The notes below the pieces were generated by a model that saw nothing but the letters and a program-made list of their open reading frames with translations, searched no databases and had not been told where the DNA came from. From the IMG/VR virus record IMGVR_UViG_3300034198_014694, positions 1-35,087 of that record: a stretch of 35,087 nt of DNA, one strand, 5' to 3'. The position numbers and the translations under genes were made by a program. This document shows positions 12,302 through 31,886 of the stretch, piece after piece. How positions within the stretch are numbered: position 1 is the stretch's first letter; the number at the start of each line of letters is the position of its first letter. Origin of the DNA: a virus.

Positions 12302-12309
12302 TATTTATG
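12302..12309 (-). promoter_or_regulatory. Candidate late promoter (CATAAATA)
   Basis: The minus strand reads CATAAATA, one mismatch from TATAAATA. It overlaps the stop codon of the giant gene and lies 26 bases upstream of the 250-residue gene. It could restart late transcription after a 16-kb gene. Sequence and position evidence only. Confidence 0.45.
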
Positions 12310-15300
12310 ATGCATCAAATGTAATAATGGAACTATCAAATTGTCCATCAGTATCATCGAACGAAGTATTGAATCCAGATGGAATTGTTGGGATATTCGT
12401 CACAACTTCTACGGATGGATATGAATATCCAGAACCTCTATTGGAAACATCAACTCTAGAAATACCAACCAAAGCTTTGATTTGAGCACCAAAACCAGTA
12501 GAAGAATCTAGAGAAACGGATGGTCTTGAAATATATCCATCACCACCAGATGTTAATTGAACACTTTCAATTCTTCCTGTTACGAGTTGCGTTAAAGCAG
12601 AAGCATTTCTACCGAAAATTGAACCAAGATAATCATATGTAATTAATGAATTTGACGATTCAATTACAGCAACATCTCTGACACCATCTTCTCCCTCTAT
12701 TTCAAGTTGGTCTCCAGATTCAATTGGGGGAACCACTGTTGCGGCAATTACATCAGCATCAGAACCAATATAAGAGAATGCTACAAAAGAACTTCCTGCT
12801 CTTGGAACTTCAGCAAATATTACTCTAGAACCAACAATTTCAAATGCAATTCCAGGTTCTTGAATGACACCGTTTAAAGAAACTATAATATTATTTTCTG
12901 GTTTAATGGTATTTGAAGAAACGCCTTCTGTGATAGTTAACGAATAGAAAACATCATTTAGTTTTAAGTTGAAACTATTTTTTAATGAATCAAATTCGAA
13001 AGAAATATCATCAAGTTTCCTCAACTTACCAATATATACAGCATTAAATGATGAACCTAAATCAGGAGCTTGAATAAATTGAATTACGTTACTGAATGCA
13101 CTATAAGAATCTACAGGAGGTTGAAGAATGCCATTAATGAATACTAATAGATGACCATCAGAATCTGGAAAATATGGTAAACCATTTTGAGTAGTTAATT
13201 TGAATGATGTTTGAATTCCATCAAATCCACGGAATGTTCTAGTTATTCTTCCGACAATTTCAGTACTATTTGCAATTAAGGATTTATAATTTGATGGTGC
13301 AATCACCTGTGCATATTTATTGAATGTTCCTTTAATATCGGACAGATAAATTCTATAACCTTCACCAAGTTGTATAACTTTATTTACTGTACCATATGCA
13401 CTAGATGCAATAGTTGTTATTGCAGTAACTGTTGCAATTCCATTTGGGAATTGTGAAGTGGGAGTTTCAAAATGATAAAGAGTATTTCCATTTGCAAATG
13501 GTGTTGTAGTACTATTTCCAATGTAAATATAATTTGTTGACCCAACCGTTTCGGTTCCAATAATTGTTGCATTTATTGCAAAATTTGTACTTCTTAATAT
13601 ACTTTCACCTTGGGGGAAAGATTTATTATTTGAATCTGGATATGATACTGTTAATCTCAAAATATTTGTTGTTTGTATAATATCCCCCAGCTCTACTTGT
13701 GTACCTTCTACATCAATTACATCAATATAATATTCACTAATAGATGAATAAACAATATTTGTCTTATTTAATATTCCACTAATAGATTCTGTTTCCAATG
13801 TTAATTTTGAACCTGTAATATCCAAAACTGGAGCTATATTTTTCTCAAATTCTAATACAGAAGATTCACTAGTTGATTTGAGACCCCTGATAAATTGTCC
13901 CGAATCAAATTCTCCAATAAGATTTACTAGTTGTACCCTATCAGTAATTAATGTAATGGTAGCAGTAAAATTATTATCATTTAATAATATATTTCCAGTA
14001 GAGAAAGAACCAGAATTTACAATTACATCAATGTAATCAAAATTTCCATCATTATATGTTGAATATACGGTGCATTCATTTGCTGGTAGACCCTGTATTG
14101 TTACAGTATTATTAATACTAAAAATTTCTGTAGGTGAAGTGTAGTTAATTTTGAATCTTTTTAGGAGAGTTTTTACATTTGCTCTATTTGTTGTAATTGA
14201 TTTAATTTCAGCATTTCTTGTACTTGTCAATCCATACAAATAATCTCCTTCTTTGATTTTTCCATCTAATGGAGTAGGAATAGTTCTTGATGGATATGTA
14301 ATTGATGGAATAGAAATACTAGTTGATGATACTATATTGTTTGTTGTGATATAAGTTGGGTTATTCAATGTTCCAAGTAAAATTGCCATTTCATCATTAA
14401 TGAATGTTTGTATCGTGGTTAAGTTTGAACCAGTTATACTAATTCCTGAATCAGTATATGCATATGTTCCAGAAGCAGTTCCAGGTGAAGTTAATGTTTC
14501 AGCAACAGCCAATTTCATAAAATCACGGACCCAAGTATATGCATAAATGCTCTGAATTAATTCACCATCCAAAGACGTGATGGTTCCAGTTGTAGCGTTT
14601 ATGTATGATTGTGTTGCGGTAACAATACCACTATTGCCATTTGTAAGCAAATCATATACTACAGCATCAACAATATAACCAATATCTCTAAGACACTTAG
14701 TATTACCTCCAGGTACGCTAAATCCTGGATAGTTATTAAGTGTTCTTTGTAAAGATTCATATTGGAAATATCTCTTATTAAACATTAATAGTTTGGCTGC
14801 ATCTCTCTTAACTTGTGTAGTTGGAAGAATAATTCCAATAGCAGTAGTAAATAAAGTATTGATAGCAGATTTTATATTTGCACAATGTCCACCATAAGTT
14901 CCACTATCAACTGTAATTGTATTGTCGGTATACTTAGATGCTGTAGCTCCATACTGTGCAGTATATACAGTAGATGCTGTTCCAGTAATAATCCAATTAT
15001 CAATAGCATATTGGCAAAGTGTATTTGCCTTTTCTAATGCATAAACCGTTGGTAATAGTTCATTTTTAATGTATGAAATTGATTTATTTGTAGTTCCACC
15101 AACATAATACGAAATTGCATTAATGGTGTTACTATTTCCACCCGATACTAAATCAGAAATAATTGCTGGTAAAATATATTCCGTTAGGTCTCGTTTACAT
15201 GTGGTAGAAGAACCACCTGGATAATCAAATGCCCTATAATTTATTCCATTTAGATTGTATGTAAATACGGAATCAACATATCCTACAGATTCTTGCGCGA

Positions 15301-18300
15301 TAAAGTTTTTATTAAACCAAATTAGATTTCCAGCATCTCGATAAACCTGACCAGTGGGAGATATAGTATCATTAATTATATTCCACAACGTATCAATTTG
15401 AGAAATAACATTAGCACAATTTCCAGCATCAACTGTTACTCCTACTGGTGGTACTGGAATTTGGGATGTATATGAAGAAGATGATAGTTGACCAAGAATT
15501 GCTTGTTTACATAACAAAGCCATTTGGGTGTGTGCATAGACACTTTGTAATACCTGAGTAGCAATATATTGCAACCCACCAGTTGAGTCAACATAGAATT
15601 TTGCTGCGGTAACGGTATTATACTGACCACCATTTTCTACATCTTCAGCAACTGCATTTAACAATAAAGATAAATCCAATTTGCATCTACTAGTTCCATC
15701 CGAAGAACCAGGCACATCACCAGGAATGATTAAATCTGGATATTTATTTTTTAATCTTCCAGCAGCCACATCAACAATAAAGTTTGCATTCAATCTTAGT
15801 AAATTGGCTGCATCTCTAAATCTATGTTGCGTATCATCATAAAATTGCCCAGTGATAATTTTATTTGTTGATGTATTTACTTGATTTGCTATGAAGGGTA
15901 CATTAATATACCCAGAAACAATAGCAGATTTTCCTCCAGTTGCCGTAATAGTTTCACCAATAGTGAATGCACCAGATTTATTACCTAAGTATAAATGTTT
16001 TAGGTTATAGTTTATACCAACAATATTTGCAGTAATACCGCTGCTCGTACCAGTAATTGTAGTACCAACTGCAAAATTACCTCCAGTTAAATTTCTATAT
16101 GCTAATTTTCTTATTTCAATAGTTTCATTTGCGGTAAAATCTCCAGTTTCATTTGCATATTCTAAAGCAATATTTTGAATATATTCTCCAGATATTAAAT
16201 CTCCAGCAATTCCACCATCATCGGAAATAGTAGTTTCAGCATGTATTAATAATTTAGTGTAAGCATCATTAACAAATGGTAGTAAAGAAGTGGTAAAACT
16301 TGAAGTATATCTTGATATTCCTTTACTAATTCTAATTTCATCCAAATAACCATTGACTGAATATGCAGAATCATATGCTGCCCCTATTCTTACTGGTTTT
16401 GATGCATAATTAGCACTATCGTTATATGTACTTGTTTGTAAAACACCATTAATAAATAATCTACCAACTCCAGATGTTCTGCTATATGCAATATGATTCC
16501 AAGTATTTGCAGTTAATATATTGTTACTTGTCAATCTAATTGTGTTATTAGTATAAATGTATATCTGCCCAGAAGTATTCACATAAAATGCAATTGCGGT
16601 TTCATTTGCAGTTGTTCTGAAGTCAAATATTGATTGGTAATTTGTAAATGAATTTGGTCTTATCCATGTCTCAATAGTGAAATCTCCAGTACCAAATCCA
16701 AAATCCGCAGATGAAGATACACTTAAATAATCCCCAGTACCATCAAATATAATACTAGAATTTCCATATTTTTTATTCGCAGTTGAAATTGTAGCATTTC
16801 CATTTACTCCTATTGTTTTTGGAGTACGATAGTTGACATTGTAATCCATCATTAGATTATTAATATCTTCAAATGCTACAAAATTTCCTTCTATTTTTTC
16901 TAAACTATCTTCTAAAGAAGAAACTTCAACAATTGACTTACTAATATCATCTACAATTACATTTGGATTTGTTGGAGAAACAATTCTATTGAATAGAAGA
17001 CCATAGAAATTGCTTGGGTCACTAATTGAAATTGATGAAATTGGTTGATTTGTAGCAGCATCAATATATGGAGAAATATTAGTTACTCTTGCAACAATTC
17101 CAGTCTTTGCTGAAATGATATAATCATTTTGAACAATCGCTAGTAATCCAGATGGAGAATCGTAAGTTCCAGAAGTTTTACTAATAATAACATTATTTGA
17201 AACCGTATTGGTATTTGAAATTAAGTTAATTTGTTCGATTACTGCTGTTTTACCAGTTAAGTTAATAATTTTTTCTTGAAATTCATATACATTATTTGTA
17301 CTAATATTAGAAGAACTTACAATTGTAGCGTTCAATCCTGTTGAAGCACAAATAATCGTTTCACTATTTTGGAAAGTTCCAGTTACATTAAATACTTTGA
17401 TTGTTCCTGTAGTGGAAGTTACAACAGTCGCAGTAGCATTTGATGTTAAACCTCTAACTGTAGCTCCAAGTTCGGGTAAAATTCCACTAACATTTGAAAT
17501 AACAATTGATTTTGATACTAAAAATTGCAATGTTAATTTTGCATAACTAATTTTTGTAGGAGCTGCGGGTGGTTCTGAGAAAATGATACTTCCAGATTGA
17601 ACTGTAAATGCTACTCCTGGAGCTTGTGAAACACCATTAATCACAATCATAAATTGATTGGTATTTGCAACTACTGGAGTTCCATTAATTGTTAATGGAA
17701 ATATGGTTCTTTCACCATCAAATAGTGTTGAAATATTATCTAATTTTTGAACAACAGAAGTCAAAATTTCTTCCGATGAAGTCAATCTCTTACTTCTGAA
17801 TAATACTTGAGTATTATCATAATCTTTATAAATCGGTTCTACTAACGCAAAATTATCAATATTTGATACTACTGAACTTTCAATTAAGTTAACACTTTTT
17901 GTAATTTCAAAATCTGTCTTATCAGTTAATCCCTTTCCAGCACCAACGACTCCAATTTCACCAAATGCTTTGAAACCAGCAGCATGTACATTATTGTTAA
18001 CAATAGTTTTCCATTTATCGATAGATACTGGACTCTTAATATTATAAGAGAATGCTTGATATAGATAAGAGTCTTGAATTTTTTGAACAATTTCACTTGG
18101 TTTACCAATATCATCTAAGAATTTACCAGTTGTCTTGGTAATAGAATCTACCTCCAAAACTCCTTTGGCAATACTCAAATTATTAATAGTACCAGTTGCT
18201 TTAGAAACAACACCACTAACTTTCTGTCCAATTGAGAAAGTACCAGTATAGTCAATTAATTTCAACAATCTAGGACCAATTTGCCATCCATCATTTTTCG

Positions 18301-21300
18301 ATACATATCCAATTGCTGTAGCATTTTCTAAACTTTCTCCTTGATACACTTGCTCACCAGCAAGGAATCTTGCTGTTTCTACAACAGATTCGGCAGCTCC
18401 ACCAAATGATTCCGTTAAAATAATTTGTCTTCCAGTACCAGCATTAACAAAAGAAATGTAATTTCCACTTACCGCATCTTGTGCAGTCAGTGCAATTCTC
18501 AATTGGTTATCTTCCAAACCAGATGCCGTTCCAGAAATTGCGTAATAAGTTTGATTTGGGTTTATATATCCAAATGAAGTAATTGGATATTGTGTACCTT
18601 GTCCCAAATCTTGTACAGTGAAAGTAACCTCTGAGCCATTTTGAATTCCATGAGGGAATGCAAATTGGAATAACCCCAAATCTAAATTAACAATATAAGT
18701 AAATGAAGACTTGAGTTGAACTGTCGGAGACGATGAATAACCAGAACCAGCATTTTTAATAATGATGCTACTAATTCTACCATTTTTTAGTTCCGAAACT
18801 GCTATAGCTCCACTTCCACCGCCACCTACAATAATTACCTCTGGAGGAGTTGTGTAACCAATACCAGGATTTGTAATAGTAATATTACTTAGAACACTTG
18901 TACTAGTTAATTGTAGATTGACTGGGAAAGTAATTTCTGGTCTTAGAGTATAATCATGAGTATAATTAAATCCAAAATTATTATTTTTTAATTTTTTAAT
19001 TTTACCTACTCTTTCTCCTATTGTAAAGATAGAGGCTCCCGAACCCTTTGGAGGAATAATTACATTTAATACTGCTCCAGAACCAGCAAGTGATGGACCT
19101 AAAATACCATCAATACCATCTACATCAATATATGCTGTGGTATAATTTTTACCTGGGTCTGTTACGACAACTTCTACAATTTGACCGGCCGGGTCACTAT
19201 TTCCATCTACAAGAATTCTTACTTTTCCTCCAGTACCATCACCAAGAATCGGAATTCCAAAATATTCACCGGCTGCATATTCCGTTCCTGGTTCTTGGAT
19301 TTCCACTCTTTCAATTTTTCTAGACGAAATAATATCGGAAACAGATGGTAATTTTTTATAAAATCCTCCACCATTAATAAGTCTAATTTTTGAAATTGGA
19401 CCTACCGCCTTGGTTGAAGATGTAGAATATGAAGAAGTTGAGACAACAGCAGGTTTTTCTGGTTCAAACGAAAGTTTAAATTTAAATCTATTTGCTCCAG
19501 TTGTAACTGTAGCTCCAGAAAGTTCGGTAATTTGAAAAGTGCCAATATATGGACTTCTAACTACATCAACATATGAATCTTTACTTACTGGACTTAATCC
19601 ACCTATTCTTGATGGGTCCGCATAATAACTAATATTTGACACATCATCAGTAACTTTAAATGATATAAATGGTGAAGCTCCTGGAGCATCTATTCCAGGA
19701 GTTCCAACTCTTATAATATTTTTAAAAGTGTATTCAATTTTATTTAAATTATCTCTATAGAATGAAAGGTAATGTCCAACATTGCTAGAATCAGATAAAT
19801 CAAATGTATATTGTTGTCCGTAAATAAATTTTAGAATGGGGTGCTTTACATATACCTCCAATACAGTTCCAGTTGGAACCGAAGTTGGTATTTGTCTTAG
19901 TGTTGTTAGAAATTCTAATTTTGAAATTATATTTGTAACAGTAAATGACCCATTAGCATAAGAATATGATGGAGTTGTTTTTGTGAAAATTTTATCTCCT
20001 TCATTTAAATAATGGGTTGTTGCAGTTCTCACATATAATTGATTTGTTAAATCTATCGATGATATTTGAAGTATTTTTGTTAGATTTGTTACTAGTGTAA
20101 TTTGAGTTACTGATGTTAATCCAGTAACTGTAACTTGACTTCTTGCAGAATTGAATGAATAATTTCCACTATTTAAAGATACTACTGAACCTTTAACATA
20201 GGAGGAACCAGTAATAATATCATCAATCCTAATTGAATAATCATCTGGAGAATATGTTTTAAATTTTGCGATATTTGAAATTGGTGAACCAGTCGATATC
20301 CAAGTCCAGTTAATACCTCCATCACTAACAGTGCCACTACTATGAGTTGGTGCTGTAGAACCAGAAGTTCCACCTGCAACTGCTTGATATACTTTTAATC
20401 CATATACAACTCTTGTACCAGTAGTATAAGTTGTACCAGTTTTCCATGTTTCTAAATTCACTCCATTATATTGTGGATATGGATATGGAATAGTTGCTAA
20501 ATTGATAATAAAAGTTCCTGGAGTAGTATTAATTACATTTGCCACCACATAATTTGATATTTGATTTGCCACTAAATCTGAGGATTCTAAAGTTCCAGAA
20601 TTTAAAGATAATGTTCCTGTTAAACTTGCAATATAAATATCATTTGATGTACCAATGTCTACAATTTTTGCTGTTGCTACGGTAACATTAGAACTATTTT
20701 TTTGAATTAAGTTACTTCCAACATTGAACTCAAAACTTTGATTTAATGTTAATTTTCTTACATTATCAATAGAAGATGTAGCAAAAGTTTTTAAGAAAAA
20801 CTTATCATATGCATTTGTCGATAAGATTAATTTTCTTCCTCCTGGAGAAGGTATCGTAGCAGTTCTGGAGGACCATTTATCACTTACAGAAGTTTGTAGA
20901 TGATAATCTTGTGTTAAGTACGAAGTTGTATAATTAAAATCTAATACTTGTATACCTTCAGAACCAATTTGATATGTTGAAATTGTGGTAGATGGAGTAG
21001 TAATTGTAGATATTGTAGAATTTGCTCTAGTAAGAGTTAATCCACAATTTGATAGAGTAATAGTACCCATCCTTTCGGCATCGGCATTCTTATCGAATTT
21101 AACGATAAATCCTTTTGATTCTCCGTAATCAAAAATACTATGTGCAACTGTTGGAACAGATGTGGTTGAATAGTTGATTGAGTAATCACTATAACGAATA
21201 TCATCAACTTTAATTGCAGTTGAATTATATGCAGTTGTCGAACCAGATGAGAATGATGTTGGGTTTAAGTTTGTTGAACTTGTAACTTGAGCATATTGCG

Positions 21301-24300
21301 AACCATTGAAATATACAGTATATGTTGCAACACTAGAAGAATAAGTCTTCGTTACTGCAAGGTGACGATATGTTCCAGTTAAAAGAGTTGTGGCATTTGT
21401 TTGTGTACTGTAGTTAGCTGCTGAACCAGTTATGTCTAGTCTTAATTTACCAGTGGTTGACGGAGAACTAGAATCAGCAAATAGTAAAACATTAAGGGTA
21501 GTTGTACCATCAGTAAGAGATAATAGGTTTGGTGCTTTATTTGTTGGGGCCGTATCAAGTTTGAACCAACCTTCTAAAGTCCAAGTTGTGGAAGATAGAG
21601 TCAATGATGGAGCCGTAATTCTTGCAGATACGGCAAGATTTACTGCATTCGTTCCAAATTTGGGGTCAGTTACATAGGTTACAGTTCCAGAAGTTGTTAA
21701 ATTGCTTCCGAATCCAGTAGACTCAGTATTATTCTCGCAACGATAAAGTCTATTTGTTCTATTTGTGTACGTATTTCCAAGAACTAATGGGTCTCCAGAT
21801 ACATCAGAAATACAAGCAGTTGCATTTAATCCACCAATATTTGTTGATGATTGATGGGTATATGATTCCAGTACAGTTCCTTCATACTTTATTTTAATTG
21901 TCGATACTGCCTTTTTATCTGTTGATGTAATCCCACTAACAGAAAAATTGATGTCTCCGAAAGTATCAATTGAAGTACGAGTTAGTGTAATATTATTTAA
22001 AGATGGAATAGTATATAATTTATTCAGAATAATAGAACCAGACGAATTTAACTTGCACATGTAAACTTTAGTTCTATCACCAGTAGATATTACCTGATGT
22101 GTAGATGTAATGTATAGTTCATCAAATTCATCTATAGAAATGGTTGTATCTGCAAATTTAATACCAGTTAATGAAATTTCTTTAGACCAAGTAACAAGGA
22201 ATCTACTAGAAGTTAAAGATAATTTAGTAACTAAAATATTATTTGTATTAGATTCTCCAACTACGTAAATATTATTATTGCTATCAATTTTTATTTGATT
22301 GAATTTTTCTGAATTTGATGTTGAAGTAATTTTTCTCTTGGTCACAAAATCGCCATTTGAATTTACTAAGATTACAAATCCATCAAATGTACTACTAGTA
22401 TTTGTATTTGTATACCCACAAATAATTAAATTGTTTTCATATGAAACAATGTCTGTGACATAATCATTTCTTGTAATACCACTAACACCAGCAATTTCTT
22501 TTTGCCATGCTAAAGTTGCACTACTACCAGTGCTATTTTCAGTATACTTAGCAAGAAGAATATCTGGATTAAAAGTATCTGAAGATGTTTGATTTGGTCT
22601 AGTTTGACCTACAACATAGATAAAATTATTATACTTTGTCAATGCTACAAATTCACAACTTTTGATTTGCCCAGATGGTTGAACAGAACTGAGTGATTTA
22701 TTCCAAATTGAACTTCCTTCCGAAGTAAATTTTTTAATAAATCCATGTGTATCTCCAGCAGTTCCTTTTGTTCTTCCAACTATATAATGAGATTTATCAT
22801 CCATCACCAAACCATTATTAATATACACATTAGTTTCATGTGTATGTAATGTTGCGAAATAATCTGCTTTCTTTTGTATCTGAGGATGACTTACTCGAAT
22901 TCTTGGATTTGAAGTAAATCCATATCCCGAATTTATAATATTAACTTCATCAATGGAACCAGTAGAAGTCACTATTGGTTGAATAATTGCATCCTGGCCA
23001 CTAGAAGTTTCTATAGAAGTTTCAACAGGAATTTCTTCATCATAACCAATACCAGATTGTTCTATTGCAAGTTCTTCCAATCCAGAGACAGTAATAACTT
23101 TAAATGTTTTACTTGTTGGCTCCATTGCTGGAGTTGTACTCATGATTACATAATTACCGACTTCTAATGTATGTGGTTCAGTTGTAGTCACCACACCATA
23201 GTAAGAATCTGTGTATTGATTATACTCATAAGTATATGCACTAATATCCTTACCTTCAATTAATTGAACACTTGCAGATGCACCATATCCTTCAGTTCCA
23301 GTATCATCAAATAATAATTTATCATTTACTTGATAATTAATTCCTGCATTTTCAATTAGAAATGCTGAAATTTTTGCATCTTCAAATTTTGTTGTTGTTT
23401 CAACTTCAATATCAACTCTTGAAGAAATATCAATAGTTGGAAAGTAATCAAATAACTCTAATTTAGATTCCTCAAAAACAATATCTGGGTCAATTGTCTC
23501 ATCATTACTAATTACGCCATCATCATTTTCATCTTCAACATCAAAAGTTAAATAGTCTCCATTTTCCAATGTTAAAGCATTTGTACTTTCATTTGCTGCA
23601 CGTTGAATATCAATGTCAACATTTTCAAATGGGTCTCTATATCTAACAATTCCTGTTGGAATATTTGCTTGTGTCGCAAATTGATTTAAATTCCAAGTAT
23701 CTGCTGTGGAGTAATAATTTGGTCCAATGATGTATGGGAACGCAGGAAGTCCTGCTGAAGTTAATGTGACAAAATATGCATAAGTACCTTCTGGAAACTC
23801 TGGTGTCTTACAGAATCTTCCATTATATTGGTCCAAATAGATTGATTCACTTTTAAAAACATATTGGTAATCATCAATAAATGTTCCTGCAGGAAATTGT
23901 GTTAATGAAGGCCCTTGAATTCTATATGGTGTTGGATTTGTATTGACGTTATATACTAAATTTGTTTTTAGTTGATAACTAGATTGGATAGGAGCAACAG
24001 TACTCGATAGCGATGTTGGGTCTGATAATCCATATGGACCATAAATTGGATTACCATCAAATGCCCAACCAATGATGGGTGAGTGAACAATTCCACTTGT
24101 CTTCTCTATTAATTGACCATTAATGATATTAATATTGTCGCCCAAAACAAATCTAAGTTGCTTTGGATTTGACATATGTGCGTATTCACCACCAAATTGT
24201 TTATTATACCCCTCAAAGATAGAACCATTAGCATAATCAAATGAAGTTGTATTATTTAAATTAAATGTCCATTCAAAAATATTTGTACTAAATTCTGCTC

Positions 24301-27300
24301 CATCTCCAATTGACTCCAATCTAATACTTGTAGTACCAGGATTATATCCAATACCCCTATTCAAGATAGTAATTCCAGTCACTCTTCCAGTGTCTGCTCC
24401 TTCAGTGGAAATAGTTGCTTTTGCTATAGCACCAAATCCATCTCCACTTATAATAACTTTAGGTGCGGTTGTATAACCACCACCTGCTGAAATTACAGCA
24501 ATAGAAATAATTCTACCGTTGCTCACATATGCTTGAGCAGCTGCTCCAGAACCACTACTCAATCTAATGGTTGGAGAAGAAGTATAATCAGCACCTCCAG
24601 AAGTTATATTAACTTCTTTGATTGGTCCTCTAACTTTTGCTTCTGCAGTTGCTCCAATTCCTCCACCACCAACGATACTAATTTCTGGGGCCGATGTGAA
24701 TCCTGTACCCGAATTATCTACAAGAATTCTAGTTACAGCGCCACTGCTTATAACCGCCGTCGCTGAAGCACCTTCTCCTCCACCACCAGCAATAGAAACT
24801 AATGGAGTAGTTTCATACCCACTACCACCATCAGTTACTTCAATTTCAATAAGTGAACCGTTAACAACTACTGTTGCAGATGCTCCAGAACCTCCTCCTC
24901 CACTAAAACTGATAATTGGTGGTACATCAGCATCATACCCACTGCCAGGATTGTCAATAGAAACCTTAGTTACTGGACCATAACTGTAAGTTTGAGTTGA
25001 TTTGTAACTCCAAATTGAAACACCATTAACGAATGAACCTATTGGTCCTGGAGAAATATTATCCTTAAGTGAAATTGTTGAAGTTACTTTAGGAAATCTA
25101 TATAATTTTCTTTGATTTCCAGGTAACAGTGCAGTACCACTAAAAGGTCCTATTTTATAATTTGGTAGTCCAGAAGTTGCAATATAAACATAATTAGTAT
25201 TGAAAAATGAATTTTGAATATTGGTAGCAAATTTACTAATTGCAGTATTGATTGATGTGGAATCACTCTTTCCTTTGTTTAGGTCAATCGAGATTAAAAT
25301 ATTTCCTTGTGGATTTATTGTTGCAGGTTGAGGTAATGTGTATTTAAATATAGTAGCACTTTCTCTAGAGGTTACCAAAAATGTTCCATTATAGACAATT
25401 GGATTGGCTCCATAAACAGTAACTTGGTCTCCAACAAGCAATCCATGTGGATTTGAGCAAGTTACAGTAGCAGTCTGATTTCCAACTCCTCCATAGGTAA
25501 TACTCTCAACTTCTAGTAATTTTTTAACATTATACAACCAAGAAGTTAAAAGTTTATTATCTTCTGTAGAACCCAACTTGGATACTGACAATTTATCACC
25601 AGTCAAATAATAACTACCATCATCCAATAGTACCGTTTTATTTGCTTCAACAATACCAAGAATGGATAATACTACTTCTGAAGAAGTATCTTTATTTACA
25701 TAAACATAAAAATTTGAATTGCAAATAGTTCCAGAATCCCAAGATTGAGCAGAACTATTAATACCTCTTGTACATTCAATAAATTGTGTTAGAGATTTTT
25801 CCTTATATCTAATTAACTCAGTACCAATTAGAACCTCACCATTTCTTTCTGGCCACCCAATTGTAGAGTCTACTGTAATAATTGCATCTGTAGGTGATAA
25901 TTTTTCTGCTAGTTTTGTAGTATATGGAATCTTAAAACTTCCAGTAATTGATTCTTCCGAAAGAATCAATTCATATAATTCAAAATCTGCGGTTTGAATT
26001 GCGGTAAAATTTTCAATTAATGCTTGAGCATATTTGATATTTGTATCTACAGCATCATCAAATTGTTCAATCAAACCATCCTTCAAATTTATTGGATTTC
26101 CTGATACAATTTTACACCTTAAAATTGTATCAATCGACCATGAAGCTGCTGAAGGTTTAATTAATTGGTCTTTTGGATAACTAACTTCAATGTCTTCACC
26201 ATAAAGAAGTTTGAACAAATAAGCAATTGAATATTTTGTTCCCTTTGAACTGTAAAAATCTTTTGCAGTTCTTAATACATTTGCCACATTAATTGTACTA
26301 AAATCAATGTTTGGCAAATCTGGTAAATATTGATTTGTAATTCTTTCTAGAACTTTCTTAAAAAATATGCTGTCTAAACTTTTAACAGTTGATTCTGATA
26401 AATGTGAAGAAGCAACAGATTTAGTTTCATCGGAAAAAATTAAATTGTTATTTGAATCATACCCAATGATTCCACTTACACCTCTACTACAATCTACAAA
26501 TTGTGAAGGTGTATATCCACTACCACCATTAATTATTTCACAACCAGTAATTTCATTTTCGCCAACTGATGCGGTTGCTTTTGCTTGAATTGGTGCTGAA
26601 ATATAAACAGTTGGTGGATACTGTGAGGAATAACCAGAACCAAATTGTACCAAACTAATATCAGTAATTTGTCCATTAAAAATTGTAGCAACAGCTTTTG
26701 CTCCAGTTCCACCAATTGAGTTTCCTAAATTATCTTTTCTATCATCTACAATATAAACACTAGGTACGTCAGAATATCCAAATCCACCATATAGAAGTTC
26801 AATATTAGTTACTCTACCAAAATCATCAACAGAAACATTTAAGACTTGTGCTCCAGTTGGTTGAATTACGGCAACTTTTGGTAGATTTGTAGAACTATAA
26901 CCAGTTCCCCCATTTATAACATTAACTGAAGTCAATTCTCCATTGCTGTTTAGAACACCTCTCAATAAAGCTGGAATACCAGTAGTAGTGATTGGTGCAT
27001 CAACATATATTTGTGGCGCAGTAGTGTACCCAGAACCAGAAGTTAGAACTTGAACTGAAGTTATTACTCCAGAAGAATTAACTTGAACATTACCTATACT
27101 AGCTCCAGAAGGATTGATGAATTGTATTCTTGGTTCAAAATCATATCCACTTCCACTATTTGTCAGTTCAATACTTTCTACCAATCCAGAAGAATTGATT
27201 ACTACACTTGCCTTAGCTTGTGTACCGCCATCATTTGTTGGTGGTTGAATATATACTCCAGGTGGATTGGATTGAGAATACCCTTGGCCACCACCAATTA

Positions 27301-28357
27301 ATGTAATTTGCTTCAATCCACCAACTAAAGCTTTTGCGGTTGCATTAATACCAGTACTTTTAACCAATGATACTTCTGGAGTATTATTTAAGGTATATCC
27401 AGAACCACCATTTTTTATTTTGACACTGGTTACAGCACCATTTGATGAAACTACAGATACTGCTTCAGCACCATCTCCAACTGATAATAAATTTGCATTA
27501 ATATATGCAAAATAAAGAGAATCATTTGGTGCGTATTTTAAAATTACTTTGTCGTTATAAACACTAAATTCTTCGTGTGGGATTAATAGATTTCCATCCG
27601 AAATTACCAAACTTAATATAGTTGATGCTGGATTATATGGAATGTTATTTAATTTTAGTCTATATTCAAGTTGATTCAATACAAGTGGTATAGAATCCAT
27701 TACGTCAATATTAGATTCTGCAAATCCTTTTAGGTATTCAATACTAATACTTGAAGAAGTGTCAGAAAGTGTAGGATTGAAAGTTCTTGGAGCTTCTGTA
27801 AATACAATTGTATCATTGTAGATATTATAATCTACACCTGGAATTAAATATTGATTGTATAATTTTACAATTATATGATTTGATGATGACGGAAAAATTG
27901 GTTCTTTGTTTGCAGTTAAATTGAATGTTGTCTGTATGCCATTAAATTGTAAATATGGGTTAAACAGAGGAATTTTCTTAAGGGAAAATTCCTCATATGA
28001 AATACCCGAACTAAAAGTTACAGATGGAGATTTTTTAATTGATTCGTAATATATTACTTCATTATCAATAATAACTGAACCGTTTTCTTCTACAAAACCA
28101 TCAGTAGTTTCGACATCAATATTTGTAGAAATTTCACTAATATTAGAAAGTAAAAATGTAGTGCCATTAACTTTTTTTACATCATACTCTGTCAGATTTA
28201 AATAATCTGACATATTATTTAAAATCCCAAATGATTGAGAAGTTTTCTCTTGTGACCTATAATATGATTGTAAAAATTTTTCAAAGAGACTATCATTCTC
28301 CCTAATGAAACTAGGTAGTTGATTCAGTACTGAAAGAGATAAAGAAGCGTTTGGCAT
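12305..28357 (-). CDS. Giant baseplate wedge protein at the gp7 position (5350 aa)
   Basis: An uninterrupted frame between gp6 and gp8, the slot of T4 gp7 (about 1030 residues), so a wedge role is inferred from position. The N-terminal motif LPSFIRENDSLFEKFLQSYY (14-33) and the segment KDFYSSKGTKYSIAYLFKLL (about 695-715) are typical of marine T4-like phage baseplate proteins. Domains in order: GSGY array (292-625), second GSGY array (1126-1359), YHYH-like domain (1360-1535), beta-propeller-like repeats (1836-2200), LamG-like (2203-2409), further GSGY units (2980-3215), an NGxxQxP hairpin module (3535-3620), second LamG-like (3842-4040), triple helical repeat (4170-4665), two more hairpin modules (5040-5200) and terminal GSGY units (5260-5330). 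TSGA-type modules are interspersed. No Shine-Dalgarno is visible before the ATG. The symbol is left blank because I cannot show homology to T4 gp7 itself. Confidence 0.9.
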   Translation of the reverse strand: MPNASLSLSVLNQLPSFIRENDSLFEKFLQSYYRSQEKTSQSFGILNNMSDYLNLTEYDVKKVNGTTFLLSNISEISTNIDVETTDGFVEENGSVIIDNEVIYYESIKKSPSVTFSSGISYEEFSLKKIPLFNPYLQFNGIQTTFNLTANKEPIFPSSSNHIIVKLYNQYLIPGVDYNIYNDTIVFTEAPRTFNPTLSDTSSSISIEYLKGFAESNIDVMDSIPLVLNQLEYRLKLNNIPYNPASTILSLVISDGNLLIPHEEFSVYNDKVILKYAPNDSLYFAYINANLLSVGDGAEAVSVVSSNGAVTSVKIKNGGSGYTLNNTPEVSLVKSTGINATAKALVGGLKQITLIGGGQGYSQSNPPGVYIQPPTNDGGTQAKASVVINSSGLVESIELTNSGSGYDFEPRIQFINPSGASIGNVQVNSSGVITSVQVLTSGSGYTTAPQIYVDAPITTTGIPALLRGVLNSNGELTSVNVINGGTGYSSTNLPKVAVIQPTGAQVLNVSVDDFGRVTNIELLYGGFGYSDVPSVYIVDDRKDNLGNSIGGTGAKAVATIFNGQITDISLVQFGSGYSSQYPPTVYISAPIQAKATASVGENEITGCEIINGGSGYTPSQFVDCSRGVSGIIGYDSNNNLIFSDETKSVASSHLSESTVKSLDSIFFKKVLERITNQYLPDLPNIDFSTINVANVLRTAKDFYSSKGTKYSIAYLFKLLYGEDIEVSYPKDQLIKPSAASWSIDTILRCKIVSGNPINLKDGLIEQFDDAVDTNIKYAQALIENFTAIQTADFELYELILSEESITGSFKIPYTTKLAEKLSPTDAIITVDSTIGWPERNGEVLIGTELIRYKEKSLTQFIECTRGINSSAQSWDSGTICNSNFYVYVNKDTSSEVVLSILGIVEANKTVLLDDGSYYLTGDKLSVSKLGSTEDNKLLTSWLYNVKKLLEVESITYGGVGNQTATVTCSNPHGLLVGDQVTVYGANPIVYNGTFLVTSRESATIFKYTLPQPATINPQGNILISIDLNKGKSDSTSINTAISKFATNIQNSFFNTNYVYIATSGLPNYKIGPFSGTALLPGNQRKLYRFPKVTSTISLKDNISPGPIGSFVNGVSIWSYKSTQTYSYGPVTKVSIDNPGSGYDADVPPIISFSGGGGSGASATVVVNGSLIEIEVTDGGSGYETTPLVSIAGGGGEGASATAVISSGAVTRILVDNSGTGFTSAPEISIVGGGGIGATAEAKVRGPIKEVNITSGGADYTSSPTIRLSSGSGAAAQAYVSNGRIISIAVISAGGGYTTAPKVIISGDGFGAIAKATISTEGADTGRVTGITILNRGIGYNPGTTSIRLESIGDGAEFSTNIFEWTFNLNNTTSFDYANGSIFEGYNKQFGGEYAHMSNPKQLRFVLGDNINIINGQLIEKTSGIVHSPIIGWAFDGNPIYGPYGLSDPTSLSSTVAPIQSSYQLKTNLVYNVNTNPTPYRIQGPSLTQFPAGTFIDDYQYVFKSESIYLDQYNGRFCKTPEFPEGTYAYFVTLTSAGLPAFPYIIGPNYYSTADTWNLNQFATQANIPTGIVRYRDPFENVDIDIQRAANESTNALTLENGDYLTFDVEDENDDGVISNDETIDPDIVFEESKLELFDYFPTIDISSRVDIEVETTTKFEDAKISAFLIENAGINYQVNDKLLFDDTGTEGYGASASVQLIEGKDISAYTYEYNQYTDSYYGVVTTTEPHTLEVGNYVIMSTTPAMEPTSKTFKVITVSGLEELAIEQSGIGYDEEIPVETSIETSSGQDAIIQPIVTSTGSIDEVNIINSGYGFTSNPRIRVSHPQIQKKADYFATLHTHETNVYINNGLVMDDKSHYIVGRTKGTAGDTHGFIKKFTSEGSSIWNKSLSSVQPSGQIKSCEFVALTKYNNFIYVVGQTRPNQTSSDTFNPDILLAKYTENSTGSSATLAWQKEIAGVSGITRNDYVTDIVSYENNLIICGYTNTNTSSTFDGFVILVNSNGDFVTKRKITSTSNSEKFNQIKIDSNNNIYVVGESNTNNILVTKLSLTSSRFLVTWSKEISLTGIKFADTTISIDEFDELYITSTHQVISTGDRTKVYMCKLNSSGSIILNKLYTIPSLNNITLTRTSIDTFGDINFSVSGITSTDKKAVSTIKIKYEGTVLESYTHQSSTNIGGLNATACISDVSGDPLVLGNTYTNRTNRLYRCENNTESTGFGSNLTTSGTVTYVTDPKFGTNAVNLAVSARITAPSLTLSSTTWTLEGWFKLDTAPTNKAPNLLSLTDGTTTLNVLLFADSSSPSTTGKLRLDITGSAANYSTQTNATTLLTGTYRHLAVTKTYSSSVATYTVYFNGSQYAQVTSSTNLNPTSFSSGSTTAYNSTAIKVDDIRYSDYSINYSTTSVPTVAHSIFDYGESKGFIVKFDKNADAERMGTITLSNCGLTLTRANSTISTITTPSTTISTYQIGSEGIQVLDFNYTTSYLTQDYHLQTSVSDKWSSRTATIPSPGGRKLILSTNAYDKFFLKTFATSSIDNVRKLTLNQSFEFNVGSNLIQKNSSNVTVATAKIVDIGTSNDIYIASLTGTLSLNSGTLESSDLVANQISNYVVANVINTTPGTFIINLATIPYPYPQYNGVNLETWKTGTTYTTGTRVVYGLKVYQAVAGGTSGSTAPTHSSGTVSDGGINWTWISTGSPISNIAKFKTYSPDDYSIRIDDIITGSSYVKGSVVSLNSGNYSFNSARSQVTVTGLTSVTQITLVTNLTKILQISSIDLTNQLYVRTATTHYLNEGDKIFTKTTPSYSYANGSFTVTNIISKLEFLTTLRQIPTSVPTGTVLEVYVKHPILKFIYGQQYTFDLSDSSNVGHYLSFYRDNLNKIEYTFKNIIRVGTPGIDAPGASPFISFKVTDDVSNISYYADPSRIGGLSPVSKDSYVDVVRSPYIGTFQITELSGATVTTGANRFKFKLSFEPEKPAVVSTSSYSTSSTKAVGPISKIRLINGGGFYKKLPSVSDIISSRKIERVEIQEPGTEYAAGEYFGIPILGDGTGGKVRILVDGNSDPAGQIVEVVVTDPGKNYTTAYIDVDGIDGILGPSLAGSGAVLNVIIPPKGSGASIFTIGERVGKIKKLKNNNFGFNYTHDYTLRPEITFPVNLQLTSTSVLSNITITNPGIGYTTPPEVIIVGGGGSGAIAVSELKNGRISSIIIKNAGSGYSSSPTVQLKSSFTYIVNLDLGLFQFAFPHGIQNGSEVTFTVQDLGQGTQYPITSFGYINPNQTYYAISGTASGLEDNQLRIALTAQDAVSGNYISFVNAGTGRQIILTESFGGAAESVVETARFLAGEQVYQGESLENATAIGYVSKNDGWQIGPRLLKLIDYTGTFSIGQKVSGVVSKATGTINNLSIAKGVLEVDSITKTTGKFLDDIGKPSEIVQKIQDSYLYQAFSYNIKSPVSIDKWKTIVNNNVHAAGFKAFGEIGVVGAGKGLTDKTDFEITKSVNLIESSVVSNIDNFALVEPIYKDYDNTQVLFRSKRLTSSEEILTSVVQKLDNISTLFDGERTIFPLTINGTPVVANTNQFMIVINGVSQAPGVAFTVQSGSIIFSEPPAAPTKISYAKLTLQFLVSKSIVISNVSGILPELGATVRGLTSNATATVVTSTTGTIKVFNVTGTFQNSETIICASTGLNATIVSSSNISTNNVYEFQEKIINLTGKTAVIEQINLISNTNTVSNNVIISKTSGTYDSPSGLLAIVQNDYIISAKTGIVARVTNISPYIDAATNQPISSISISDPSNFYGLLFNRIVSPTNPNVIVDDISKSIVEVSSLEDSLEKIEGNFVAFEDINNLMMDYNVNYRTPKTIGVNGNATISTANKKYGNSSIIFDGTGDYLSVSSSADFGFGTGDFTIETWIRPNSFTNYQSIFDFRTTANETAIAFYVNTSGQIYIYTNNTIRLTSNNILTANTWNHIAYSRTSGVGRLFINGVLQTSTYNDSANYASKPVRIGAAYDSAYSVNGYLDEIRISKGISRYTSSFTTSLLPFVNDAYTKLLIHAETTISDDGGIAGDLISGEYIQNIALEYANETGDFTANETIEIRKLAYRNLTGGNFAVGTTITGTSSGITANIVGINYNLKHLYLGNKSGAFTIGETITATGGKSAIVSGYINVPFIANQVNTSTNKIITGQFYDDTQHRFRDAANLLRLNANFIVDVAAGRLKNKYPDLIIPGDVPGSSDGTSRCKLDLSLLLNAVAEDVENGGQYNTVTAAKFYVDSTGGLQYIATQVLQSVYAHTQMALLCKQAILGQLSSSSYTSQIPVPPVGVTVDAGNCANVISQIDTLWNIINDTISPTGQVYRDAGNLIWFNKNFIAQESVGYVDSVFTYNLNGINYRAFDYPGGSSTTCKRDLTEYILPAIISDLVSGGNSNTINAISYYVGGTTNKSISYIKNELLPTVYALEKANTLCQYAIDNWIITGTASTVYTAQYGATASKYTDNTITVDSGTYGGHCANIKSAINTLFTTAIGIILPTTQVKRDAAKLLMFNKRYFQYESLQRTLNNYPGFSVPGGNTKCLRDIGYIVDAVVYDLLTNGNSGIVTATQSYINATTGTITSLDGELIQSIYAYTWVRDFMKLAVAETLTSPGTASGTYAYTDSGISITGSNLTTIQTFINDEMAILLGTLNNPTYITTNNIVSSTSISIPSITYPSRTIPTPLDGKIKEGDYLYGLTSTRNAEIKSITTNRANVKTLLKRFKINYTSPTEIFSINNTVTIQGLPANECTVYSTYNDGNFDYIDVIVNSGSFSTGNILLNDNNFTATITLITDRVQLVNLIGEFDSGQFIRGLKSTSESSVLEFEKNIAPVLDITGSKLTLETESISGILNKTNIVYSSISEYYIDVIDVEGTQVELGDIIQTTNILRLTVSYPDSNNKSFPQGESILRSTNFAINATIIGTETVGSTNYIYIGNSTTTPFANGNTLYHFETPTSQFPNGIATVTAITTIASSAYGTVNKVIQLGEGYRIYLSDIKGTFNKYAQVIAPSNYKSLIANSTEIVGRITRTFRGFDGIQTSFKLTTQNGLPYFPDSDGHLLVFINGILQPPVDSYSAFSNVIQFIQAPDLGSSFNAVYIGKLRKLDDISFEFDSLKNSFNLKLNDVFYSLTITEGVSSNTIKPENNIIVSLNGVIQEPGIAFEIVGSRVIFAEVPRAGSSFVAFSYIGSDADVIAATVVPPIESGDQLEIEGEDGVRDVAVIESSNSLITYDYLGSIFGRNASALTQLVTGRIESVQLTSGGDGYISRPSVSLDSSTGFGAQIKALVGISRVDVSNRGSGYSYPSVEVVTNIPTIPSGFNTSFDDTDGQFDSSIITFDAS
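12760..13240 (-). repeat. Two tandem NGxxQxP beta-hairpin modules in the giant protein
   Basis: Two adjacent units share the pattern F-D-x-x-x-x-S-F-x-L, then LVFINGILQPP or IVSLNGVIQEP, then I-x-F-x-x-x-P-x-x-G-S-S-F-x-A. A third unit lies at about 17500-17750 (MIVINGVSQAPGVAFTV) and a diverged one near residues 135-205 (LYNQYLIPGVDYNIYNDTIV). The NG-x-x-Q-x-P form is common in phage fibre and baseplate proteins. These copies bracket the protein and probably fold as small beta-sandwiches. Confidence 0.6.
14365..15845 (-). repeat. Triple helical repeat with conserved Cys in the giant protein
   Basis: Three degenerate tandem units of roughly 158 and 177 residues spacing. Each opens with an R-D-A-x-x-L motif (RFRDAANLLRLNANF, VYRDAGNLIWFNKNF, VKRDAAKLLMFNKRYF). 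Each continues through P-G-x-x-x-x-x-C-x-x-D/R-D/L (CKLDLSLLLNAVAEDV, CKRDLTEYILPAIISDL, CLRDIGYIVDAVVYDL) and a G-G-N/G-x-N-S-like turn, and reaches a long helix containing V/I-Y-A. Helical composition contrasts with the beta-rich sequence on both sides. I recall similar helical units in marine phage structural proteins but know no assigned function. Confidence 0.7.
16240..16830 (-). other. LamG / concanavalin-A-like domain 2 of the giant protein
   Basis: Residues about 3842-4040 show the LamG_3-type pattern: KKYGNSSIIFDGTGDYLSVS, then D-F-T-I-E-T-W-I-R-P, then TWNHIAYSRTSGVGRLFING, ending YLDEIRISKGISRYTS. Domains of this kind bind carbohydrates in many families. In a baseplate protein that would fit glycan contact on the host surface, which is inferred. 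Confidence 0.8.
21130..21750 (-). other. LamG / concanavalin-A-like domain 1 of the giant protein
   Basis: Residues about 2203-2409 carry a diverged LamG-like pattern: KFGTNAVNLAVSARITAP, then TTWTLEGWFKLDTAP, then GTYRHLAVTKTYSSSVATYT with Y-F-N-G-S-Q, then IKVDDIRYSDYSINYS. It directly follows the beta-propeller-like region. Probably a carbohydrate-binding fold; ligand unknown. Confidence 0.7.
21780..22850 (-). other. Beta-propeller-like repeat region of the giant protein
   Basis: Residues about 1836-2195 repeat a blade-like pattern in which a strand ends in V-V-G or its equivalent and is followed by a second strand naming a 'path': HYIVGRTKG, FIYVVGQTRP, LIICGYTNTN, IYVVGESNTN, LYITSTHQV. 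F-I-K-K-F or similar (F-V-I-L-V, L-A-K-Y) and W-x-K-x-I/L follow. This resembles SBBP or other bacterial propeller repeats. Five or six blades are visible by eye. Confidence 0.6.
23755..24280 (-). other. YHYH-like domain of the giant protein
   Basis: Residues about 1360-1535 contain HSPIIGWAFDGNPIYGPYG followed by a spacer and LDQYNGRFCKTPEFPEGTYA then Y-F-V-T. This follows the signature of the YHYH protein family (H-S-P-x-x-G-x-A-x-D-G-x-P-I-Y-G ... N-G ... Y-x-Y-x-V-T). The closing Y-H-Y-H reads Y-A-Y-F here, so the histidines that name the family are absent. Confidence 0.7.
24280..24985 (-). repeat. GSGY array 2 in the giant protein (about six units)
   Basis: Residues about 1126-1359 hold about six units of 25-35 residues: GSGYDADVPPIISFSGGGGS, GSGYETTPLVSIAGGGGEGA, GTGFTSAPEISIVGGGGIGA, GADYTSSPTIRLSSGSGAAA, GGGYTTAPKVIISGDGFGAI, then G-I-G-Y-N-P-G. 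Each has a short V-x-x-I-x-V strand before the turn. The regular spacing suggests a beta-solenoid or beta-roll. Confidence 0.8.
26480..27485 (-). repeat. GSGY array 1 in the giant protein (about eight units)
   Basis: Residues about 292-625 hold about eight units: GGSGYTLNNTPEV, GGQGYSQSNPPGV, GSGYDFEPRI, GSGYTTAPQI, GGTGYSSTNLPKV, GGFGYSDVPSV, GSGYSSQYPPTV, GGSGYTPSQFV. Each is followed by an alanine-rich A-x-A-x-V strand and an I/V-x-x-I/V-x-L/V strand. Same repeat class as in the 701-residue protein, gp8 and the truncated upstream protein. Confidence 0.8.
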
Positions 28358-30875: not shown

Positions 30876-30883
30876 TATTTATA
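30876..30883 (-). promoter_or_regulatory. T4-type late promoter (TATAAATA) for gp25-gp6
   Basis: Exact consensus on the minus strand in the 44-base gap before gp25. A partial second element, CTAAATA, lies at 30889-30895 over the stop codon of the preceding gene. This is the best-placed late promoter in the window and probably starts the wedge transcript. Confidence 0.8.
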
Positions 30884-30891
30884 CTGGTTAT

Positions 30892-31074
30892 TTAGTGCCA
30901 TCTCTCCACAAAATCATCAAAACCATCCTTTCCTCCACACCATCTTGAGTATCTGTCCTCTGGAGGAGTTCCCTTTTTCTCATTTTCGGGTACATAATCG
31001 GTAATTAACCGATTTGTGCCCCATTTTTCCTTCATATATTCAACATCTCTGTCTGGATTTGGGTTCACTGCCAT
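30892..31074 (-). CDS. Hypothetical small protein (60 aa)
   Basis: Not recognised. The protein is hydrophilic, rich in charged residues and Pro, with three Trp and one Cys (RYSRWCGGKDGFDDFVERWH at the C-terminus). There is no signal peptide and no membrane segment. AGGAGA at 31081-31086, six bases before the ATG, is a strong ribosome site and supports this as a real gene. It follows the intrinsic terminator at 31135-31157 and no clear promoter was found between them. It is therefore probably made by read-through or from a promoter I cannot recognise. It precedes the gp25 late promoter. Its role in virion assembly is unknown. Confidence 0.75.
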   Translation of the reverse strand: MAVNPNPDRDVEYMKEKWGTNRLITDYVPENEKKGTPPEDRYSRWCGGKDGFDDFVERWH

Positions 31075-31086: not shown

Positions 31087-31134
31087 AAAATTAGATTAAA
31101 ACAGAACTTTTTACGGGGTTGCTATCCCGAAGAC

Positions 31135-31157
31135 AAAAAAAGCGGCAAAAAGCCGCT
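31135..31157 (-). terminator. Intrinsic terminator after the 47-aa gene
   Basis: On the minus strand AGCGGC (31152-31157) pairs with GCCGCT (31141-31146) across a five-T loop, followed by six further T. It starts 8 bases beyond the stop codon of the small gene. Perfect 6-bp stem with a U-tract: a textbook rho-independent terminator. Confidence 0.9.
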
Positions 31158-31165
31158 ATAATTAT

Positions 31166-31309
31166 TTATTTTCCTTGACCACGGTATCTTTTTTTAGCTG
31201 CATTTCGACTGGAAGCAGCATATTTTGTATTCATCCCATTTCCTTGACGACTTTTCTTTGGTTTCGACTCAATTTCAACTTTATTTGTGAGTGATGGACG
31301 CTTTGCCAT
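31166..31309 (-). CDS. 47-aa highly basic small protein in its own transcription unit
   Basis: Reads MAKRPSLTNKVEIESKPKKS, then RQGNGMNTKYAASSRNAAKK, then RYRGQGK, then stop. Of 47 residues, 14 are Lys or Arg and two are acidic, so it is very basic and probably disordered or nucleic-acid/ribosome-binding, which is inference. I have the impression that short basic proteins ending in R-G-Q-G-K recur in cyanophages but cannot verify this here. The start is set by a perfect AGGAGG nine bases upstream (31318-31323) and a sigma70-type promoter just beyond it. The gene ends at an intrinsic terminator. Neighbours are late structural genes, so independent, possibly early, expression would be out of step with its surroundings. 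Confidence 0.85.
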   Translation of the reverse strand: MAKRPSLTNKVEIESKPKKSRQGNGMNTKYAASSRNAAKKRYRGQGK

Positions 31310-31317
31310 GAAATTTT

Positions 31318-31323
31318 CCTCCT
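31318..31323 (-). promoter_or_regulatory. Ribosome binding site of the 47-aa gene
   Basis: Perfect AGGAGG on the minus strand, eight bases before the start codon. It is the strongest Shine-Dalgarno in the window and fixes the start of a gene too short for routine calling. Confidence 0.85.
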
Positions 31324-31334
31324 AAGACTTATGT

Positions 31335-31363
31335 ATTATACCAGATTTTTTGCTATTTGCCAA
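31335..31363 (-). promoter_or_regulatory. Sigma70-type promoter (TTGGCA-17-TATAAT, extended -10)
   Basis: On the minus strand the -35 box is TTGGCA (31358-31363) and the -10 box is TATAAT (31335-31340). The spacer is exactly 17 bases and T-G-G directly precedes the -10 box (extended -10). Five of six -35 positions and all -10 positions match the housekeeping consensus. Predicted transcription start near 31328, leaving an untranslated leader of about 18 bases that includes AGGAGG. The -35 box lies in the last codons of the PAAR gene. Confidence 0.85.
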
Positions 31364-31886
31364 CCATTACATTAGCAGAACCAGATGCAATTCTACTCTT
31401 ACACGGCATAACCATGCCATCCCCTACAGCAGCAAGTCTTTTTCCATTTACAAAGACTGTAGCAGTGGTCGCAACAACAATTCTTGAGTGACCAGCACCC
31501 ATATTATCCTCTTTAGTCAATATACTACAATTGCATGTTGCTGTAGTAATTGTAGTTGTGCATCCAGCTTTCGGTGTTGGTGCTTTTTGTTCAACCAAAT
31601 TTGTAGTTGGAGATTTATGGAGAATTAATGCATCACCGTCCAAAACTGGAACTGTCCCATTAATCAATACATTTCTGGGAATTGGAGCAAGTAGAGTTAG
31701 AGCGGCTGGAGGCCACTGGCAAGAAGCATCTTTAACTGTCAATGGTAGTGTATTACACCATGTAGGGGGGCAGGCAACCCCTGTAGGACCACAAGGACGA
31801 CCTTGCCCTGGGTTGTGAATATTTGCTGGAATGGGTACTCCATGCCCGCTACAAGTGCCTGTAATGATAGCTGCTAGACCTGGCAT
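31353..31886 (-). CDS. PAAR-type spike-tip protein, Cys-rich (177 aa)
   Basis: Probable counterpart of T4 gp5.4, the PAAR protein that sharpens the tip of the central tail spike. The PAAR-like C-terminal part runs MGAGHSRIVVATTATVFVNG (129-148), then K-R-L-A-A-V-G-D, then a terminal G-S-A-N-V-M-V-G. The N-terminal part (GTCSGHGVPIPANIHNPGQG, about 10-29) supplies the other half of the tip fold. The family binds a metal ion at the apex through His and Cys. Nine Cys (12, 32, 39, 44, 56, 109, 118, 120, 162) and four His (15, 24, 90, 133) are unusually many for the family. T4 gp5.4 is about 97 residues, so there is a large internal insertion. It begins four bases after the upstream gene's stop codon, so the two are probably co-translated. 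Confidence 0.82.
   Translation of the reverse strand: MPGLAAIITGTCSGHGVPIPANIHNPGQGRPCGPTGVACPPTWCNTLPLTVKDASCQWPPAALTLLAPIPRNVLINGTVPVLDGDALILHKSPTTNLVEQKAPTPKAGCTTTITTATCNCSILTKEDNMGAGHSRIVVATTATVFVNGKRLAAVGDGMVMPCKSRIASGSANVMVGK

Follow-up and report, generated by a model that had tools for sequence, protein, structure and literature searches.

Does a 47-codon gene that lies among late structural genes of a T4-like cyanophage, with a promoter and a terminator of its own, represent a recent insertion or a resident gene under separate control? The locus lies in a stretch of 35,087 bases that makes up an entire virus record (IMGVR_UViG_3300034198_014694; hereafter, the window) and represents part of a T4-like cyanophage genome. 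Its main genes lie on the minus strand and encode a 902-aa wedge-like protein, a PAAR protein, the 47-codon product, a 60-codon open reading frame (ORF), gp25, gp6, and giant ORFs. One of the last is a single 5350-aa ORF (12305-28357) that follows gp6, where relatives have baseplate wedge initiator genes. An earlier note on this DNA had described the 47-codon unit as a moron, i.e., an independently expressed insert in a structural cluster. The features of the locus are as follows.

31353..31886, minus strand: gene for a PAAR-motif protein, the upstream neighbor (stop codon TAG at 31355-31353; its 3' end overlaps the -35 element)
31335..31363, minus strand: sigma70-type promoter (-35 TTGGCA at 31363-31358, 17-nt spacer, extended -10 TGG at 31343-31341, -10 TATAAT at 31340-31335)
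31318..31323, minus strand: Shine-Dalgarno sequence AGGAGG, 8 nt ahead of the ATG
31166..31309, minus strand: 47-codon gene for a basic protein of phrog_516/T4-LIKE GC 394 (ATG at 31309, stop codon TAA at 31168-31166)
31131..31157, minus strand: intrinsic terminator (stem 31157-31141, then TTTTTT; -11 kcal/mol)
30892..31074, minus strand: downstream 60-codon ORF (partial match to phrog_1414)
30876..30883, minus strand: T4-type late promoter motif TATAAATA before gp25 (motif as in PMC2984593)
30434..30847, minus strand: gp25 baseplate wedge gene, the conserved syntenic neighbor

Rereading the minus strand recovered every element of the near-perfect host-type promoter that had been claimed, with its 17-base spacer and extended -10, at the same positions. 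The -35 hexamer sits within the final PAAR codons, and the predicted transcription start is the G at 31328, the seventh base past the -10. Promoter-like sites overall show no excess in the window (41 seen versus 50 expected), whereas the combination of an extended -10, a 17-nt spacer, and a match of at least 11/12 occurs once versus 0.04 expected from mononucleotide shuffles. The Shine-Dalgarno sequence is the longest among the 11 main window genes, as the earlier note had proposed in calling it the best, and the intrinsic terminator also described there is present as a hairpin with six T. The promoter of the 47-codon gene is very probably functional.

In these viruses, early genes are served by the host sigma70 and the late motif is NATAAATA (PMC2984593). 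Within the window, TATAAATA is located 28 nt ahead of the gp25 ATG, and late-type ATAAATA motifs also precede genes for 510-aa and 250-aa proteins; the 100 nt preceding the 47-codon gene contain no such ATAAATA motif. Two late-motif candidates at the locus were set aside. One, AATACATA, overlaps the -10 element, has one mismatch to NATAAATA, and is not conserved; the other, an ATAAATA at 31163-31169, shares bases with the stop codon immediately ahead of the terminator and probably arose by chance. Late read-through from the PAAR gene into the 47-codon gene is possible in the window.

The encoded protein has 14 K/R and 2 D/E residues and a pI of 11.2, in keeping with the K/R-rich, low-acid composition attributed to it earlier. 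Its sequence matches phrog_516 (E value of 1e-22) over residues 3-47 of 47, aligned with positions 4-48 of the 48-position profile, and the S-PM2 homolog is annotated as T4-LIKE GC 394. By sequence comparison, the window gene is thus a member of phrog_516/T4-LIKE GC 394, a family without known function. It shares with other members (e.g., S-PM2p076 and SCREM1_159) a full-length match, the place before gp25, the basic composition, and the conserved motifs PK(K)TRQGxG and RGQG(K/R), and it differs in nothing essential, except that its combination of promoter and terminator is rare among relatives. In 208 moderately diverged pairs of relatives, differences at codon positions 1, 2, and 3 numbered 1122, 820, and 3650, respectively; because they concentrate at position 3, the gene is truly coding and under purifying selection. 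Across 154 loci, residues P17, K18, Q22, G23, N36, K40, G44, Q45, and G46 had no majority alternative (100% after rounding). Searches with the protein gave no match in Pfam, PADLOC, or solved chains (PDB) and only matches with E values of >0.1 in NCBIfam, and no similarity to a known binding domain was found in these collections. The AlphaFold model is of low confidence (pLDDT 59; pTM 0.19) and contains a single weak helix.

The distribution of the gene bears directly on its origin. Homologs were detected in about 449 cyanophage records (tblastn; E values up to 1), and gp25 was detected in about 458 records whose names start with Synechococcus, Cyanophage, or Prochlorococcus (E values up to 1e-5); the two record sets were counted separately, so that the agreement between 449 and 458 is approximate. 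In 149 of 154 distinct loci, gp25 lies at most 2 kb downstream, and in the window its start is 462 nt beyond that of the 47-codon gene. Judged from these searches, nearly all T4-like cyanophages carry the gene, in synteny with gp25, and it is almost certainly a conserved resident gene.

Morons were described for SPP1 as "added on" transcription units (PMC6316719). The window resembles them in having a promoter, a small gene, and a terminator within a late cluster, an arrangement from which neighbor-independent expression is expected, and a homolog at a different place, with a TATAAT of its own, exists in S-TIM5 (beside speD and far from gp25; the TATAAT is 24 nt before the start and the -35 is weak). 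At the level of sequence, the promoter and terminator part of the moron claim stands. The part that made the gene an insert of limited distribution does not, given the roughly 449 cyanophage records and the gp25 synteny: the earlier note had named conservation of the unit at this locus in relatives as evidence against an insert, and comparison across relatives found the gene there in nearly all of them. Nor was the deviating base composition expected of a moron seen, the GC content of the gene (0.375) being ordinary compared with windows of equal length (0.332 +/- 0.047). Moreover, the terminator is kept in just 4 of 30 loci with their own promoter, so it is no conserved part of the unit. We therefore reject the moron insert on distribution, synteny, and GC content; that the unit is a recently acquired promoter-gene-terminator cassette placed among late genes is highly improbable despite its complete promoter, Shine-Dalgarno, gene, and terminator arrangement.

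If the gene is resident, the conservation of its promoter becomes informative. We distinguished three layouts over the 154 loci; these come from best-scoring matches and are related to one another, so that the counts are not independent. In layout A, a glycosyltransferase gene precedes the 47-codon gene, frequently with a small intervening ORF; gaps are short or absent, and the 47-codon gene usually lacks its own promoter. In layout B, 30 nt or more separate it from the preceding gene, which is often structural, and in layout C, it lies tightly behind a PAAR-like gene, without its own promoter. Of the distinct loci, 36 have a gap of 30 nt or more, and 30 of these carry a -10 element (at least 5/6 matches) 21-29 nt before the ATG, including 26 with an exact TATAAT. 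In the same loci, 19 of 145 control genes do so (6 exact; gaps of 30-200 nt), a rough comparison because control starts were called mechanically. Aligned on the -10, these sites read TTGnnA-17-TGnTATAATA-N5-GT(A/C)nTT, and the window promoter fits TTGnnA-17-TGnTATAAT with N6-GT at the conserved distance from the gene. Most loci other than these 36 have layout A, in which the glycosyltransferase gene at the front shows a sigma70-type promoter (9/12 matches or better) in 76 of 79 cases, compared with 8.7 in shuffles, mostly 21-29 nt ahead of its ATG. In layouts A and B alike, a host-type promoter thus reaches the small gene, be it the gene's own or that of the glycosyltransferase gene. About 21 of the 154 loci, chiefly S-RIM2-type ones (layout C), show neither pattern; they break the rule that the gene is always under sigma70 control, which we dropped, and late co-transcription is possible in them.

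Upstream of the glycosyltransferase gene (e.g., at L004, L059, and L080), strong TTGACA-17-TATGAT/TAGAAT promoters were observed, whose spacers often contain CTAAATA, CTATATA, or ACATA. Judging by these motifs, the glycosyltransferase promoters possibly combine overlapping early and late promoters.

The conserved start region, GT(A/C)nTT, together with the lack of a terminator in most relatives, where transcripts could continue toward gp25, would also fit a reading in which the promoter or the RNA is the main conserved element, with the sigma70 start feeding the baseplate genes or making a regulatory leader and the peptide being secondary. This reading is improbable, since it leaves the strong codon-position bias and the invariant residues of the 154 relatives aside; the gene is retained in layouts without this promoter, the locus has no match in Rfam, and in the window the terminator separates the gene from gp25.

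The promoter core of the 47-codon gene recurs elsewhere in cyanophage genomes. In 18 cyanophage records, TGnTATAATN6GT occurs 53 times, versus 10 times for the reversed control (e.g., AJ630128.1:135234, KX349277.1:128661, and GU071105.1:181481). Sites that were inspected lie ahead of psbA in three phages (S-PM2, S-RIM2, and Syn1). In S-RIM2 and ACG-2014b, they precede cobS and a peptidase gene; S-RIM2 also has one before a tRNA-Arg, and in ACG-2014f they precede genes of the DNA-metabolism region. The motif may define a class of host-polymerase promoters in cyanophages. The S-PM2 psbA gene has sigma70 -35 and -10 motifs plus an overlapping gp55 site (PMC5931967); the window promoter shares the core found before psbA and cobS in several phages but differs from that of S-PM2 psbA in that its overlapping AATACATA is mismatched and not conserved. 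Auxiliary metabolic genes of P-HM2 are expressed only in the middle cluster (PMC5082946). Because promoter position and sequence are conserved in relatives of the same layout and the core is common to psbA and cobS, the proposal of a separate host-type transcription unit within the late cluster is supported.

The family extends beyond T4-like phages. A query with the 40-aa S-TIP28 protein retrieved short relatives in the T7-like phages S-CBP2, S-RIP1, and S-SRP01, the siphovirus S-CBS4, and S-EIVl, and a query with the S-CBP2 protein added S-CBP1, S-CBP3, S-CBP4, and DSL-LC07; these shortened relatives span T7-like, siphoviral, and unclassified cyanophages. The six aligned non-T4 members match phrog_516 and no other PHROG. 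When relatives were scored with a profile of T4-like members only and compared with the best of 300 composition-preserving shuffles, the respective scores were 30.7 and 8.7 (S-TIP28), 24.3 and 5.8 (S-CBS4), 21.0 and 9.8 (S-RIP1), 18.1 and 7.9 (S-EIVl), 14.0 and 7.7 (S-CBP2), and 12.0 and 8.1 (S-CBP3); the score of S-SRP01 ties with its best shuffle at 9.7. Both the xTxQGxG and the RGQG(K/R)-like ends are retained in the short relatives, in which about five residues are missing from the center. The gene adjoins ssb in S-TIP28 and endonuclease or exonuclease genes in S-SRP01 and S-CBP3. In S-CBS4 (L186, 2850-3160), the copy is flanked by tail genes, and a terminator-like hairpin and T run lie on each side of it, making it an isolated unit resembling that of the window.

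A profile search of 300 host-family and 292 phylum genomes yielded no credible host homolog, only weak matches and a phage contig with a Prochlorococcus single cell. Derivation of the gene from the host was rejected on these searches; three of the strongest weak matches (L188, L189, and L199) appear to be due to chance. Nine genome-collection matches (L097-L105) are from metagenome-assembled genomes (MAGs) and one single cell. The MAGs are labeled Flavobacteriales, Woesearchaeota, Gammaproteobacteria, and others. The Prochlorococcus single-cell contig (L100) carries gp25 and gp6 and is a phage contig; the other contigs are probably misbinned cyanophage contigs.

These neighborhoods also bear on whether the protein is a small virion or baseplate-assembly component whose extra promoter is incidental. 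Its position beside baseplate and tail genes, between the PAAR gene and gp25 in the window and next to tail genes in S-CBS4, would suit a structural role, as would the S-RIM2-type loci, which couple the gene to structural genes without its own promoter. However, the T7-like relatives place it by ssb, endonuclease, or exonuclease genes, and such DNA-metabolism neighbors speak against a function in the baseplate. Layout A puts it behind a glycosyltransferase operon that has a sigma70 promoter, the S-TIM5 copy is beside speD, and solved chains gave no match. We consider a virion component unlikely. The distribution tracks the host group, not the virion type, which argues for a host-directed role.

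Our preferred reading (probability of roughly 0.6), drawn from comparative sequence data, is that the 47-codon gene is a resident, near-universal gene whose expression is early or middle and driven by the host polymerase and whose product is a basic, disordered protein directed at a target in the cyanobacterium. Despite its place at the margin of the late baseplate cluster, the gene would mostly be kept under sigma70 promoters. Within the window lineage, it would have its own extended -10 promoter because it follows a structural gene. Host RNA polymerase would start there early or in mid-infection, ahead of gp55-dependent late transcription; the terminator would confine the transcript to the 47-codon gene, and gp25-gp6 would restart from their own late promoter. 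Early or middle timing is likely on this promoter evidence.

In the same reading, the K/R-rich peptide would be a host-directed factor, rather than a virion part, that binds nucleic acid or a ribonucleoprotein (e.g., the ribosome). Composition and predicted disorder make such host-directed binding about an even proposition, and its target would probably be RNA, the ribosome, or DNA. The composition and the AlphaFold model suggest that the peptide may be disordered alone and fold on such a polyanion. A possible analogy is the ribosome-targeting PhiKZ014 (PMC10914614), a phage factor acting early on host gene expression, although the likeness is one of described role alone and ribosome binding by the window protein is conjectural. 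Somewhat more speculatively, the gene may encode a cyanophage-specific microprotein of at least four phage groups (T4-like, T7-like, siphovirus S-CBS4, and S-EIVl) that is absent from the searched hosts, with host-promoter control retained across layouts for action before the late phase on the picocyanobacterial ribosome, RNA polymerase, or nucleoid.

That a short, conserved gene is common to otherwise unrelated cyanophages suggests a common picocyanobacterial target. Early and middle control in these viruses has been described as unclear (PMC2984593), and the motif common to psbA and cobS allows a class of host-polymerase promoters to be defined by sequence and put to the test. The gene is annotated merely as hypothetical or is missing in several records (P-SSM2, S-CBP2, and S-RIP1), and expression studies counting reads on such annotations would miss it where it is unannotated. 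Unannotated copies lie at GU071092.1:73826-73966 (P-SSM2), KC310806.1:4095-4232 (S-CBP2), and HQ317388.1:33955-34080 (S-RIP1); at GU071105.1:63264-63404 (Syn1), an ORF whose annotated start differs overlaps the gene.
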